A stretch of DNA of 42,267 nt from Patescibacteria group bacterium (GTDB lineage: Bacteria > Patescibacteriota > Saccharimonadia > UBA4664). A model generated the notes under the pieces. It saw nothing but the letters and a program-made list of their open reading frames with translations. It had not been told where the DNA came from and did not search any database. The translations under genes were made by a program, and so were the position numbers. Positions within the stretch are counted from its first letter, which is position 1. Each line of letters starts with the position of its first letter. Location of the stretch: assembly GCA_028288925.1 (NCBI GenBank), contig JAQGHG010000017.1, positions 1-42,267 on the forward strand, in the 5' to 3' direction. Shown here in pieces: positions 15,590 to 39,649 of the stretch.

Positions 15590-16828
15590 ATGTATCCTCA
15601 GAGCTCACTCTCTGGCCGTGGCCGTAAAGGCGCACGACCGATGTTTTCGTCGAAGAATCGGCGTGGACCGCAGGTCAAATCGATTGACCCCAACAAATTT
15701 ATTAATAAGGCTACGCCTATCATTGAAGAGACGCCGTTTGTGCCCGAGCACAAGTTCGTCGATTTTGGTTTTGATAAGCGCTTGCAATTCAATATTGACG
15801 CGCATGGCTATGAGCACCCCACCCCCGTTCAGGATGGTGCTATCCCCTACGTCCAGGAAGGCCGCGACCTCATTGGCCTAGCCAACACCGGTACTGGTAA
15901 GACGGCGGCGTTTTTGCTGCCGACGATCCACCGTATGCTGCGTCACGAGGTCAAGCGCTGCTTGATCCTGGTGCCGACGCGCGAGCTGGCCATCCAGATC
16001 GAAGAGGAATTCCGCATCTTCGCGAAAGGCCTCAGCCTGTACGCTACCCTCGTGGTAGGTGGCGCTTCGATCAACCGTCAGCTGTCGCAGCTGGCGCGCA
16101 AGCCTCAGTTTATTGTGTCGACCCCCGGCCGGCTCAAGGACTTGCTGGAAAACTACGGCCAGCGCATCGACGACTTCGATGTGCTCGTGCTCGACGAAGC
16201 CGACCGCATGTTGGATATGGGCTTCATCCGCGACATCCGCTCGATCATGAGTAACTTGCGCGAAGAGCGGCAGACGCTGTTCCTGAGCGCGACGATTACG
16301 CCTGATATCGAGCAGCTCATTACGACTATCCTCAAAGACCCCGCTACCGTGAGCGTCCGCAAGGGCGAGACCAGCAGCCATGTCGAGCAGGATGTGGTGC
16401 GCGTAGAAGGCGGCAAGGAAGCCAAGGAAGAGAAGCTCGTAGAGTTGCTCTCCGGCCCGGAATTCAAGAAGGTTTTGATCTTCGGCGAGACCAAGTGGGG
16501 CGTCCAGAAGCTGGCCGACCGCCTGAATCAGCGCGGCCTCCGGGTAGCGGCGATCCACGGCAACAAGAGCCAGTCGCAGCGCCAGAAGGCTCTGAACGAC
16601 TTCAAGAGCGAGCGGGTACAAGCCTTGATCGCGACTGATGTCGCGGCTCGTGGTCTTGATATTCCCAACGTGTCACATGTGATCAACTTCGATGCTCCCA
16701 AGCAATACGAAGACTACATCCACCGTATCGGCCGTACCGGCCGGGCCGGCCAGATGGGCATGGCTCTGACGTTCGTAACGAGTGGCGCGGCGAGCTTTGA
16801 GCCTCCGCGTCCCGGCGGCCGGCGCTAA
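15590..16828 (+). CDS. DEAD-box ATP-dependent RNA helicase
   Basis: ANTGTGKTAAFLLP, PTRELA, LVLDEADRMLDMGF, LFLSATIT, HRIGRTGRAG. Confidence 0.96.
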   Translation: MYPQSSLSGRGRKGARPMFSSKNRRGPQVKSIDPNKFINKATPIIEETPFVPEHKFVDFGFDKRLQFNIDAHGYEHPTPVQDGAIPYVQEGRDLIGLANTGTGKTAAFLLPTIHRMLRHEVKRCLILVPTRELAIQIEEEFRIFAKGLSLYATLVVGGASINRQLSQLARKPQFIVSTPGRLKDLLENYGQRIDDFDVLVLDEADRMLDMGFIRDIRSIMSNLREERQTLFLSATITPDIEQLITTILKDPATVSVRKGETSSHVEQDVVRVEGGKEAKEEKLVELLSGPEFKKVLIFGETKWGVQKLADRLNQRGLRVAAIHGNKSQSQRQKALNDFKSERVQALIATDVAARGLDIPNVSHVINFDAPKQYEDYIHRIGRTGRAGQMGMALTFVTSGAASFEPPRPGGRR

Positions 16829-34575: not shown

Positions 34576-34650
34576 GGTCCCATCGTCTAGCGGTTAGGAC
34601 GCTGCCCTCTCACGGCGGTAACAGGGGTTCGAATCCCCTTGGGACTACCA
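34576..34650 (+). tRNA. tRNA-Glu (anticodon CUC), CCA encoded
   Basis: ggtcccatcgtctagcggttaggacgctgccctctcacggcggtaacaggggttcgaatccccttgggactacca folds as a cloverleaf; anticodon loop CTCTCAC. Confidence 0.95.
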
Positions 34651-35226: not shown

Positions 35227-37842
35227 CTACTCTTCTCCTAGGCCTGTTATGGCGGAGTTAACGATTGGCGCGCGATCTTCATCGCTACCGATGGTAGCCC
35301 ATTCACGAAACCCGGCTTCTAGGTTACTAGACCAACTCATTATCTGGTTTGTGACGGTAGCGAGTTCTGTCTTTGATGGTTTTTTTATTAATACATTCTC
35401 GATATGCTCTGCTGATAGCTTTCCGTAACTTGTCCCCCCGGATTCCGTCCAAAGCTGCAGCCTGCTTTGTTCGGATCGCAGGATCGCAAATAGCCAGGCT
35501 TGAGAGTATTCATTTTCGTACTCAGGTCTCAGTCGCACAACAGCTACCCCATCGGGGCTTCCGACTAGGTCTTTGTCATGATTGATAACAAACCCAATGT
35601 TTCGTCTCTCAGGGCGAACAAGGCCTACGATAATATCATTCTTTGCGAGAGGATAAACCTTATTTGATTTCCTTTCGGCTATTCTCCATGCCTTTGTGAG
35701 CGGCTGTGGTACAACCACTCCTTCCACAGCACGAATATCTAGGCCTTCGACTAATCTCCACATTTTAGACGGTTCAGTCTCATTAAGGTCTACAGTGGCC
35801 TTTACGACGTCAGCGATTGTTCCCAGGCGAATGTGCGGCAGAGACTGGATAGATTTTATGTTCTTCAATGCTCGTGGCATTAAACGACGAGGCTTCATGT
35901 CTAGATTGGAGTGAGAAAGTATATCGTCAATATGCGCACCATTCCACGTCCTGTCCCCGCCGTCTCGAACGAAAGAGAGAAAGTCCTCGGTGATGGCATT
36001 GAAATCAGATGAGACAACGGGGTGGTTCTCTGCATCTCGTATTTCTAGGCCAGTTTCCTCGTCGCGTTTGTACGTAGGTAAGAAACCGCCCCCCATTTTG
36101 AAACCAACATTCCTAACCAAGCCAGTGTGTATGGCGTAATTGTTACGTATCGCTTCGTTCAACACAGCGGGGGGGAGTTTCACGCCGGTGAGGATATTAG
36201 AACGTAGGTCGGCATCGGATTTAGCGAAGATTCTCCTCGGTAACTCTGTTAAATTCAAAATTTGTATATGTGAGACGATCCATTCCCTCACATAACCGTA
36301 GAGCGTCGTGCATAAGTACCCCTCCGGCAAAATTATTGATATCCTACCGTTATTTGCCAGCATTTTGTAGCATCGCTCAATAAATAGGATGCCAAGCTGC
36401 TGTGATCCCAAAATTTCTTCTGTCATAACCCATTTTTTGCTCGTCTCATCAATGGCCCAGACATGCCCGAGGTCATAATGTTTCAAAACATTGGGATTCT
36501 TTTCTAGCGTTTTCGCTCCAAAGGGCGGGTTGCATAAAAGAACGTCCATTTCCTGTTCCCACAAGGAATGGTTTTCAATCGAATCATCGCGGAACAAATT
36601 GGTCTGCCCATCGCGATTTAGAATCATGTTAATTATTGCCAAGTCATACGCTTTGGGATCTTTATCTATTCCAAAGATTCTTTGAACTATGTCAGCATCG
36701 CCCTTCCGAGTTCTAAATTCCAAGGCCGAAGCGAGAAAATCGGCAGTTCCCATTGCGGGATCAGCGATTTTGTCATTGGGACCTATTTGAGCCATTTCAA
36801 CCATCGTCTCAATTAGCGTCATTGGTGTGAAGTATTGATCTAGACTCTTTTTGAATACTGCGGGGACAAAGGACATAAATACTTGTTGCATAGACTCAGT
36901 GGAAGCCGATGAAAGATTGATGCCTTCTATAAGCGCAACTACTGCCCGCAGTGCTGAATCAGTTAATTCAGAAACTGAAGACGGAGAGAATAGTGTTTCC
37001 GCTCGGCTATATCTTTTGCCAGCAACTCTGTATACTTCATCAACCCTATCTCTAAAACTCGGATCAACACCCTTCAAAACCTGTAATTTCAATTCTTTTG
37101 AGGTCGACTGGGCAGCTTCTTTTTCGTCACAATACCGGGCCAGTAGTAACTTAACGGTTTCCTTATATCTCGTGTGCTCATCATTAACTCCATGAGAGCG
37201 CATGGCATTAGCTATACCGTGTAAAATCCCCACTAGGTTTTCGGCTGGCGTAAGCGTTTCAAAGATAATTGCTTTTGATTTATAAGTTGTGCCGTATTTA
37301 GGCAGGTTCGCTAGACTATCTTGAACAACTTCAGTGATTTGGCCGCCCTTGTCGCTCTTTACCGACTTTGTGAACAGAAACCTATTGATATCATCCCAAT
37401 AAACACCCAGAACATCGGTCCTCGCAAGTTGCCTCATCGCAGGCTCTAGTTGGAACTTAACGCCACCCTCTTTCTTGGAAGAATCTCGCTTTATTTCGCC
37501 GACCAACAAAGCATGGTTTAAACGCTTATCAAATGGCAAGTGCGCAAGTTCAACTACACGATCGTCATAGACGATAATGTCGCATCTGAGTGTGTTCCGT
37601 CCAGATTCTCCTAGGTGCTTTAGAATAACCGTCTCTACGTCGATTTGATTTTTTGGGTAACCACGCTCCAAAAGATATTTGATGCAGTCGATTCTTCTCG
37701 CTTCTTCCGACACAGTAAGACCATCTTTCGCCAGCATCGTGACGTTCAAAGGACCCCTTACTGGGCAAACCAGGAGAGCCTGATCAGTTTTTACCATCGT
37801 GGCGGCAATTTGTTCAACTGTTGCGATGCCTTCTTGCGCCAT
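35227..37842 (-). CDS. Single-polypeptide RM-type protein: HsdR_N-like nuclease domain + N6-adenine methyltransferase + specificity-like C-terminus
   Basis: CDIIVYDD...LLVGEIKRD (PD-ExK-like); DQYFTPMTLIETMVEMA, ADPAMGTADFLA, LLCNPPFGA; C-terminal region resembling a target recognition domain. Confidence 0.85.
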   Translation of the reverse strand: MAQEGIATVEQIAATMVKTDQALLVCPVRGPLNVTMLAKDGLTVSEEARRIDCIKYLLERGYPKNQIDVETVILKHLGESGRNTLRCDIIVYDDRVVELAHLPFDKRLNHALLVGEIKRDSSKKEGGVKFQLEPAMRQLARTDVLGVYWDDINRFLFTKSVKSDKGGQITEVVQDSLANLPKYGTTYKSKAIIFETLTPAENLVGILHGIANAMRSHGVNDEHTRYKETVKLLLARYCDEKEAAQSTSKELKLQVLKGVDPSFRDRVDEVYRVAGKRYSRAETLFSPSSVSELTDSALRAVVALIEGINLSSASTESMQQVFMSFVPAVFKKSLDQYFTPMTLIETMVEMAQIGPNDKIADPAMGTADFLASALEFRTRKGDADIVQRIFGIDKDPKAYDLAIINMILNRDGQTNLFRDDSIENHSLWEQEMDVLLCNPPFGAKTLEKNPNVLKHYDLGHVWAIDETSKKWVMTEEILGSQQLGILFIERCYKMLANNGRISIILPEGYLCTTLYGYVREWIVSHIQILNLTELPRRIFAKSDADLRSNILTGVKLPPAVLNEAIRNNYAIHTGLVRNVGFKMGGGFLPTYKRDEETGLEIRDAENHPVVSSDFNAITEDFLSFVRDGGDRTWNGAHIDDILSHSNLDMKPRRLMPRALKNIKSIQSLPHIRLGTIADVVKATVDLNETEPSKMWRLVEGLDIRAVEGVVVPQPLTKAWRIAERKSNKVYPLAKNDIIVGLVRPERRNIGFVINHDKDLVGSPDGVAVVRLRPEYENEYSQAWLFAILRSEQSRLQLWTESGGTSYGKLSAEHIENVLIKKPSKTELATVTNQIMSWSSNLEAGFREWATIGSDEDRAPIVNSAITGLGEE

Positions 37843-38099: not shown

Positions 38100-39437
38100 C
38101 TACCGGATTTGCCGGCTGAGCAGCTCCGGCCATTCGCGCGGGATGAACGGCTTGCCGGCCGAGGCGGCGAGGATTTTTTGCACGGCCTCCTCTAGCTCGG
38201 GTGAGCCGGCGGCCTCCTTCTCTCCTATTACGATGGCATGGGGCACGAGGTCTTCGCGGGCTTGTTTGAGCTTTTTGCCGACGCTGTCGTTGCGGTCGTC
38301 GATTTCGAGGCGGACGGGCCGGCCGGCTAGCCGGGCGCTGAGCTCTTGGCAGAGGGCAATGTGCTGATCGCTCACGGGGATGAGACGGATCTGCACCGGG
38401 TGAAGCCAGAGCGGCAGGCTGCCGGGAAATCCGTCGAGCGCCATGTATAGGTAGCGCTCGATGCCGCCGGGGATGGCCGAGTGGATGATCACGGGGTGGC
38501 GGCTCTCCCCGGCTTCGTCGATGTATTGGATGCCTAGGCGCGGGGCGTTGCCGATGTCGATCTGGACGCAGGCGATCTCGCGGGACTGGCCGAGCGCGTC
38601 GATGATTTTGTAGTCGACGTTGATGATCCAATACCGGTCCTCGTGGTCATTGATGACGCCCACCAGCACGTCGCGGTCCAGTCCGGCGGCTACTTGTAGG
38701 ATTTCGGCCCGGTAGCGCTCCCAATGCGCGGGCGAGGATACTTCGATGGCGACTTCGTATTCGCGGCCGAGCTCCCGGCCGCTGGCCAGGATTTGCTCCT
38801 GGAACTTGGGAAACCACTCGAAAGCCTGCGCCACATCGCGGAAGTACGGGTGGATGTCGGGCATGTAGAACCGGCGCTGGCGGTAGAGCAGCATGCACTC
38901 GCCCCTTTGCTCGTGCCGGTAGCAGTCGGATATCGAAAAGTGCGCGAAGGGCAGGTTTCGATAGCTCAGCGCGTGCTGCTGGGCGAGGTTGAATTGCGGG
39001 TAGCTGGCGTCGTAGCTCATCACCACTTCATTGGCGCCGGATTTGAACCGGTAGAGGCGGTCGCCGTAGAGCCGCGCGTAGGCCGCCACCACGGGGTGGT
39101 CGAGGTTGAAGATGTTTGAGCCGTTGACCTCATACACGGGCAGGCCGACGCGGTGTACGAGCATGCGGGCATAGTCTTGCACGAGCCGGCGCATCAGGTT
39201 GGCCTTGAAGTCGTACTGGGCGATGCCGATGTCGGCGTTGGGCTCCCAGCCGAAGCCAAATTTCTTGGCAATGGCTAGGTAGTCCGGCTTGCCTTCGGCG
39301 CCACGATTGACTTCGTGGCGCAAGGCTTCGCGTTTGACGAACAGCCGGAAATCATCCGACCCCTCCCCCGCTTTCACATAAGCTTGGGCGTCGATGATTT
39401 GGCCGTTCTTTTTGATGACGTAATAATTGTCTTTCAT
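38100..39437 (-). CDS. thrS: Threonyl-tRNA synthetase, short archaeal-type (no TGS/editing domains)
   Basis: SYRNLPFAHFSISDCYRHEQRGECMLLYRQRRFYMPDIHPYF; HPVIIHSAIPGGIERYL; anticodon domain WLHPVQIRLIPVSDQH...DDRNDSVGKKLKQAREDLVPHAIVIGEKE. Confidence 0.88.
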   Translation of the reverse strand: MKDNYYVIKKNGQIIDAQAYVKAGEGSDDFRLFVKREALRHEVNRGAEGKPDYLAIAKKFGFGWEPNADIGIAQYDFKANLMRRLVQDYARMLVHRVGLPVYEVNGSNIFNLDHPVVAAYARLYGDRLYRFKSGANEVVMSYDASYPQFNLAQQHALSYRNLPFAHFSISDCYRHEQRGECMLLYRQRRFYMPDIHPYFRDVAQAFEWFPKFQEQILASGRELGREYEVAIEVSSPAHWERYRAEILQVAAGLDRDVLVGVINDHEDRYWIINVDYKIIDALGQSREIACVQIDIGNAPRLGIQYIDEAGESRHPVIIHSAIPGGIERYLYMALDGFPGSLPLWLHPVQIRLIPVSDQHIALCQELSARLAGRPVRLEIDDRNDSVGKKLKQAREDLVPHAIVIGEKEAAGSPELEEAVQKILAASAGKPFIPREWPELLSRQIR

Positions 39438-39445
39438 TACAGGAG

Positions 39446-39489
39446 CTCCATTTAGTAGGTGTGGACTCTGGGCGCCGTTCTAAATGGAG
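39446..39489 (-). promoter_or_regulatory. SD-sequestering hairpin immediately upstream of thrS
   Basis: ctccatttag-N24-ctaaatggag; the 3' arm carries GGAG, 8 nt before ATG. Confidence 0.75.
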
Positions 39490-39505
39490 TTTTGTGCCGA
39501 GATAC

Positions 39506-39527
39506 AAAAAACTCCCGCTGCCGGGAG
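39506..39527 (-). terminator. Attenuator terminator in the thrS leader
   Basis: Minus strand ctcccg-gcag-cgggag-tttttt. Confidence 0.88.
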
Positions 39528-39556
39528 AATTTTGAGCATTCGCAACTACCGGCAGG

Positions 39557-39613
39557 CTAGAACGTAGCTGTCGCTGTCTCGGGGATGACGATGTAGTTGG
39601 CGAAATGTTTCAT
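39557..39613 (-). CDS. thrS leader peptide MKHFANYIVIPETATATF
   Basis: ATG 7 nt after TATAAT; Thr at positions 13, 15 and 17 of 18; stop just before the antiterminator segment. Confidence 0.75.
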   Translation of the reverse strand: MKHFANYIVIPETATATF

Positions 39614-39620
39614 GGTGGTG

Positions 39621-39649
39621 ATTATAACACGCTTGAGCTTATTGGTCAA
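39621..39649 (-). promoter_or_regulatory. Promoter TTGACC-N17-TATAAT for thrS
   Basis: Minus strand ttgacc aataagctcaagcgtgt tataat. Confidence 0.85.

Follow-up and report, generated by a model that had tools for sequence, protein, structure and literature searches.

A probable threonine leader-peptide attenuator ahead of a second threonyl-tRNA synthetase gene in a Patescibacteria bacterium

The ThrRS2 gene and its upstream region

The window (the whole 42,267-nucleotide stretch of DNA that was analysed) contains a gene for a threonyl-tRNA synthetase, here called ThrRS2, which is preceded by a compact region with a promoter, a short leader ORF, an intrinsic terminator, and a hairpin over the Shine-Dalgarno (SD) sequence (Table 1). 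The gene had initially been annotated as thrS. It does encode a ThrRS, but model scores and the presence of another thrS gene showed that it is a second, archaeal-type enzyme without an editing domain rather than the housekeeping one. Of all models, NF003068 (archaeal-type) gave the best match (382.6 bits, below the curated cut-off of 484), covering positions 153-562 of 613, with the N-terminal part absent, while the housekeeping bacterial model TIGR00418 scored 229.9 bits, below its cut-off of 383.65. The housekeeping ThrRS of the same genome (G000:C11) is a canonical protein of 617 amino acids (TIGR00418, 628 bits) with 25% identity to ThrRS2. No thr leader was found before this housekeeping thrS, whose upstream region runs straight out of another coding gene.

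The zinc-ligand cysteine of ThrRS2 is replaced by Ser145, with His196 and His319 retained. A serine at this position, together with both zinc histidines, was present in all seven orthologs aligned. Judged by these residues, ThrRS2 is possibly zinc-independent or re-specified, and it is a putative tRNA-Thr-charging enzyme despite the serine in its zinc site. The AlphaFold prediction for the protein was of mediocre quality (mean pLDDT 63.6) and was set aside. At the zinc-cysteine position, an aspartate is found in L033 (G315:C12), a distant ThrRS of the archaeal type that is similar in size and approximately 27% identical.

ThrRS2 is rare and its distribution patchy, with occurrence in six of 393 genomes of the class, spread over five families. 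It is also carried by a GTDB contig labelled Candidatus Saccharibacteria (L032) and, outside the class, by G343 (from a phylum-wide sample) and four relatives with 50-58% identity to the G343 protein. The six class genomes, the GTDB contig, and the five cases from outside the class make up the 12 ThrRS2 loci analysed here. Close relatives of ThrRS2 were not found in plasmid and viral collections.

Table 1. Coordinates of the attenuator region and of the ThrRS2 gene in the window.
Feature	Position	Strand	Sequence	Remarks
Attenuator region as a whole	39649-39435	minus		promoter, leader ORF, segment 2, terminator, SD hairpin, in this order
Promoter, extended -10	39621..39649	minus	TTGACC-N17-TATAAT (TGTTATAAT)	11/12 consensus positions, TG-extended; -35 TTGACC 39649-39644; 17 nt; -10 TATAAT 39626-39621
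Leader ORF, predicted leaderless	39557..39613	minus	MKHFANYIVIPETATATF, then stop	ATG at 39613, 7 nt after -10 box; 18 sense codons, end TTC-TAG at 39557; counterpart at equivalent place in 12/12 ThrRS2 loci
Regulatory Thr codons	39563..39577	minus	ACA-(GCG)-ACA-(GCT)-ACG	codons 13, 15, 17
Protector helix (segments 1:2)	39539..39604	minus	UUCGC(C)AACUAC (39604-39593) with GUAGUUGCGAA (39549-39539)	MFE structure and co-variation
Segment 2, antiterminator strand	39549..39555	minus	CUGCCGG	begins 1 nt past stop codon
Segment 3	39518..39524	minus	CCGGCAG	terminator 5' arm and loop; pairs with segment 2
Intrinsic terminator (attenuator)	39506..39527	minus	CUCCCG-GCAG-CGGGAG + U6	hairpin proper 39527-39512, then T6; written CUCCCGGCAGCGGGAG-U6; hairpin and U-run in 12/12 loci
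Segment 4	39508..39515	minus	GGAGUUUU	terminator 3' arm and U-run; can pair with segment 5 (8 bp)
Segment 5, anti-Shine-Dalgarno	39486..39493	minus	AAAACUCC	
Sequestering hairpin (5:6)	39446..39489	minus	CUCCAUUUAG (39489-39480) with CUAAAUGGAG (39455-39446)	between terminator and ThrRS2; masks SD GGAG 39449-39446; consensus fold of 8 loci
ThrRS2, archaeal-type threonyl-tRNA synthetase	38100..39437	minus		445 aa; catalytic core and anticodon-binding domain, editing domain absent

The promoter, the ATG of the 18-codon ORF 7 nt behind it, and the ACA, ACA, and ACG codons near the leader end were all located as the initial annotation had described them, as was the complementarity of segment 2 to segment 3 inside the terminator. 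A competing upstream pairing, given as agctac/gtagtt, was correct in that a protector exists, but the helix found is longer. In the eight aligned loci, the TGnTA-A-T of the extended -10 was invariant and lay 6-7 nt upstream of the ATG, the -35 being poorly conserved; the gap between -10 box and ATG was 5-9 nt in the four later loci and, likewise, across all 12. Such a gap is too short for any SD, which makes a leaderless leader the natural reading. Based on promoter spacing, transcription would start at the leader AUG (+1) or within a few nt of it.

Conservation, co-variation, and folding of the leader

The initial annotation had proposed that orthologous loci be searched for Thr-rich leader ORFs and for covarying antiterminator and terminator strands. 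Both were found in 12 of 12 loci: each combines a short leader ORF, in which 2-6 codons specify Thr, with an adjacent segment 2 and a terminator, the sequences differing between loci (Table 2). The leader stop was 0-2 nt from the antiterminator strand in all 12, and terminator U-runs ranged from U5 to U8. Threonine accounted for 42 of the 198 non-start leader codons, an excess that is partly selected because leader ORFs were chosen with a requirement for at least two Thr codons. ACA or ACG made up 26 of the 28 leader Thr codons in the first eight loci; ACC represents 52% of the Thr codons in the genome.

Table 2. Leader ORFs and segment 2/3 strands at the ThrRS2 loci.
Locus	Leader ORF	Segment 2/segment 3
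Window	see Table 1	CUGCCGG/CCGGCAG
L003	MIYSIISDQPTTTTVLS	
L032	MIYSINSNQATTTTVLS	CCGUCGGG/CCCGACGG
L035	MKNHMNNKNIVLKTTTQTTRV	
L063	MIYSVISNQSTTTTVLS	
L064	MIYSIISNQAKTTTVLS	
L065	MINRINNANQSTTRSL	UCGUCC-U-GG/CC-G-GACGA, one mismatch
L066	MISRISNHLQTMTTLLS	
L178	MENVRRLHVNRSTTTTTTL	CCUGUCGGG/CCCGACAGG
L179	MKYILRSHNLATATLKA	
L180	MRLNNKIQAIHITTAMA	UUUUGCGGG/CCCGUAAAA
L181	MKNLNYSYNLNATTLTT	

In a MAFFT alignment, the leaders of the window and of L035 were out of register, so that co-variation is underestimated by pair counts made on this alignment. It was assessed instead by permuting cognate strands, with segments delimited by eye, equally for cognate and non-cognate pairs. For nine divergent loci, the cognate 2:3 pairing had the lowest total duplex energy of 362,880 permutations; for eight loci, 18 of 40320 permutations reached the cognate energy, many of them swaps of near-identical sequences. 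The protector, in which leader codons ~3-9 pair with the stretch directly 3' of segment 2, also co-varied, its cognate energy being beaten or tied by 6 of 40320 (eight loci) and 30 of 362880 permutations (nine divergent loci). A consensus fold of eight loci contained the pairing of leader end and segment 2, the terminator, and the sequestering hairpin.

To represent different ribosome positions, nascent RNA was folded with segment 3 already made and segment 4 not yet, and with the ribosome front 12 nt past the start of the A-site codon. Whichever Thr codon occupied the A site, 6-10 expected 2:3 pairs were predicted in 11 of the 12 loci and 3.5-7.0 in L181. With the stop codon there instead, these fell to 0-2.5 in the 12 loci, a loss that follows from the stop codon abutting segment 2. 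When no ribosome was present, the protector blocked 2:3 pairing in 11 of 12 loci; the exception was L180, which lacks a strong protector and in which the antiterminator formed even without a ribosome. At equilibrium, the terminator roughly equalled or exceeded the antiterminator in stability and won in most loci, indicating that the switch depends on the co-transcriptional order of synthesis, as in known attenuators. Equilibrium folding of the whole leader, which mostly yielded the terminator, was rejected as a switching test because it is uninformative for a kinetic switch.

Segments 4 and 5 suggest a possible second layer. Complementarity between them was seen in eight of eight loci. When the antiterminator was forced, the probability of 4:5 pairing was 0.5-0.9 in six of these eight, compared with ~0-0.14 when the terminator was forced. 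Forcing the antiterminator raised SD exposure up to 0.4-0.57 in L003, L032, L064, and L066, whereas the window gained little (0 to 0.13), L065 did not gain, and L035 has no SD. Two related elements described below, L076 and L077, preserve 4:5 through different sequences (CUCUUUUAU/AUAAAAGAG, 9 bp, in L077), and with both included the cognate energy was reached by 24 of 5040 permutations. Overall, a domino in which the terminator 3' arm swaps to 4:5 and unmasks the ThrRS2 ribosome-binding site appears about as probable as its absence.

Proposed mechanism and alternative explanations

These features together point to a ribosome-mediated transcription attenuator that very probably senses charged tRNA-Thr and controls the spare ThrRS2. 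The initial annotation had recognized the logic of thrL/pheM-type attenuation, and this reading gained computed support from the 12 of 12 loci, the co-variation, and the ribosome-position folding. RNA polymerase would start at the leader AUG or a few nt away. With ample Thr-tRNA, a ribosome reaching the stop codon would cover segment 2, the 3:4 terminator would form, and transcription would end before ThrRS2. When Thr-tRNA is scarce, as a result of threonine starvation or because the main ThrRS fails or is inhibited, ribosomes would stall on the Thr codons with their front clear of segment 2, thus allowing 2:3 pairing and read-through. If no ribosome were present, the 1:2 protector would hold the switch off. 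In the less certain second layer, retention of segment 3 by 2:3 pairing would leave the terminator 3' arm free to pair as 4:5 and expose the ThrRS2 SD.

An alternative arrangement would be an ordinary terminator of the upstream gene, accompanied by an ORF and a promoter that arose by chance, with ThrRS2 transcribed from elsewhere. An upstream gene with a RibD_C domain indeed lies on the same strand as the leader and ends at 39646. In addition, a strict promoter-ORF-terminator pattern (TGnTAnnnT, 5-8 nt, ATG/GTG, 8-35 codons, terminator) is insufficiently rare in one genome: it occurs three times in the own 1.218-Mb genome, compared with 0.75 times on average in a set of 12 Markov genomes, so that the single-genome case is suggestive. 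However, all 12 orthologous loci share the arrangement with differing sequences, 2:3 and protector co-vary, and the terminator of L032 cannot serve the gene upstream of it, which lies on the opposite strand. A role as terminator of the upstream gene was rejected on these grounds, and the chance explanation as a whole is extremely improbable. Hardly more credible is an erm-like arrest peptide, in which the nascent chain or an antibiotic, rather than hungry Thr codons, would cause the stall. According to PMC6851288 and PMC9226507, antibiotic-inducible leaders of Bacillus subtilis combine transcription and translation attenuation and also have a short ORF, an antiterminator, and an SD hairpin. 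The leader peptides studied here, however, differ among divergent groups and have in common only their Thr codons, in variable number (2-6) and spacing, and the ThrRS gene behind them.

Control might instead be mainly translational, with opening of the SD hairpin as the decisive event and termination as a minor one. Consistent with this explanation, the 5:6 hairpin over the SD was kept in seven of the first eight loci, but strong terminators with U5-U8 were present in all loci, and L035, which has no SD, nevertheless retains leader and terminator. We consider predominantly translational control unlikely, albeit less so than the other two alternatives, and retain transcription attenuation as the preferred reading.

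Known systems and related elements

The system shares with attenuators of the Escherichia coli thrL/trpL/pheM type a leader rich in regulatory codons, mutually exclusive protector, antiterminator, and terminator, and a stop codon sited such that a terminating ribosome covers segment 2. Unlike these, it has an ORF that appears to be leaderless, acts on the gene for a duplicate aminoacyl-tRNA synthetase (aaRS), has fifth and sixth segments that reach the SD, and resides in a CPR-type host. The translational operator of E. coli thrS consists of anticodon-arm-like hairpins ahead of the SD to which ThrRS binds; in the window, the SD is likewise covered by a hairpin.

Bacillus subtilis thrZ encodes a second ThrRS that is T-box-controlled and induced when Thr-tRNA is short. 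Its sensor is uncharged tRNA bound directly by RNA, whereas no T-box or other Rfam family was found at the window leader. Another second ThrRS with defective editing that is made under stress, Anabaena T2, keeps its zinc ligands and is Zur-controlled, in contrast to ThrRS2 with its missing zinc cysteine and its putative RNA attenuator (PMC4787780). By analogy with T2 and thrZ, a role of ThrRS2 as a stress back-up for tRNA-Thr charging is plausible.

Attenuation of thrS by a Thr leader had been called unusual in the initial annotation. A precedent exists in Streptomyces lividans TK24, in which a leaderless ThrL has been annotated upstream of thrS, although its mode of termination is unclear (PMC8079986). 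Both have a Thr-containing leader ORF and a ThrRS gene downstream; transcription begins at the start codon in S. lividans and is predicted to do so here. The S. lividans leader (MKRVRPFLETTPGFVPAR) has two Thr residues and one hairpin without a U-run, and was described in one species (PMC8079986), whereas the present system has a clear terminator, an antiterminator and a protector that co-vary in 12 loci, a divergent ThrRS2, and possibly a translational layer. Among aaRS genes, leader-peptide attenuation has been established or proposed for pheST, trpS, leuS, and hisS (PMC1262725, PMC2965389). These include candidate classical attenuators of Streptomyces trpS and leuS (PMC1262725) and His leader peptides that control duplicated aaRS genes, the hisS paralogs of bacilli (PMC2965389). 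They concern other amino acids and other phyla, and leader-peptide control of thrS was not found in the consulted parts of these two surveys.

No description of leader-peptide attenuation in CPR/Patescibacteria, whose regulation is almost unexplored, was found in the literature searched. New aspects are the group of organisms, the fact that the synthetase is a divergent duplicate, the completeness and strong co-variation of the attenuator, and possibly control at the level of translation as well. That a switch has been maintained by compensatory changes in such tiny genomes suggests active monitoring of tRNA charging by these cells, and the attenuator points to a trigger for a second ThrRS that lacks an editing domain and a full zinc site. 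The predicted domino, if true, would join transcriptional and translational control in one compact amino-acid-sensing RNA.

When the 393 class genomes were searched with a covariance model of the leader, matches at E <= 1e-24 came from the six ThrRS2 carriers and from no other genome; since these six belonged to the training set or lay close to it, the informative part of this result is the lack of strong matches elsewhere. The next matches (E 3.5e-5 to 2e-4) were L075, L076, and L077, the first of which is probably due to chance. L077 (G513:C1:4197-4375, minus) has a like attenuator layout ahead of an orphan gene whose 111-aa product has no Pfam match: a leader (MNNCLFGLKKKLQP, then stop) with three AAG Lys codons, the antiterminator pair CGGUUGG/CCAGCCG directly past the stop, a terminator, and an SD region. 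In L076 (G708:C19:3246-3421, plus), a like layout with leader MTLCCSTTSKRIQP and stop is followed by a reading frame that ends after three codons, and this element may be left over from a gene that has been lost. These two elements indicate that the family may extend beyond ThrRS2.

With a broader model, R2, confident new elements beyond the training set were not found; one weak match was L160 (G564:C49, near 15732-15852, plus; leader ATG ~1460). It consists of TGCTATAAT, 6 nt, and the ATG of a leader (MSMFYQLHAHMLPSRLA, then stop), with ACUGGCGU complementary to ACGCCGGU in the terminator behind; the next gene is, by eye, phosphoribosyltransferase-like. L160 looks real by eye as another candidate leaderless leader-peptide attenuator. 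A far-reaching scenario would unite these observations in a horizontally moving CPR emergency cassette, with a leaderless Thr sensor, a six-segment domino, and an editing-free, zinc-independent ThrRS that replaces a starved, metal-depleted, or poisoned zinc-dependent housekeeping ThrRS, and with L076, L077, and L160 as related attenuators; we regard this as speculative and rather unlikely in its entirety.

Elsewhere in the same genome (G000:C9:61624-61770, plus), TGTTATGAT is followed after 6 nt by a leader (MNYRRANLCACTCHPHGRSV, then stop) with three Cys codons and by a terminator (CCUCCC-CACC-GGGAGG-U6), ahead of a threonine-dehydratase-like gene; a GGGAGG shortly before the leader stop is able to pair with CCUCCC. 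An upstream leader was not seen in the two homolog regions examined. The sole Rfam match in the window at gathering threshold was a tRNA gene (34576-34647, plus), which overlaps a mechanically called ORF on the opposite strand. Positions 35227-37842 (minus) encode an 871-aa protein that combines an N6-adenine methylase core with a weak match to HSDR_N_2 at its N-terminus and may be a fusion of restriction and modification enzymes.
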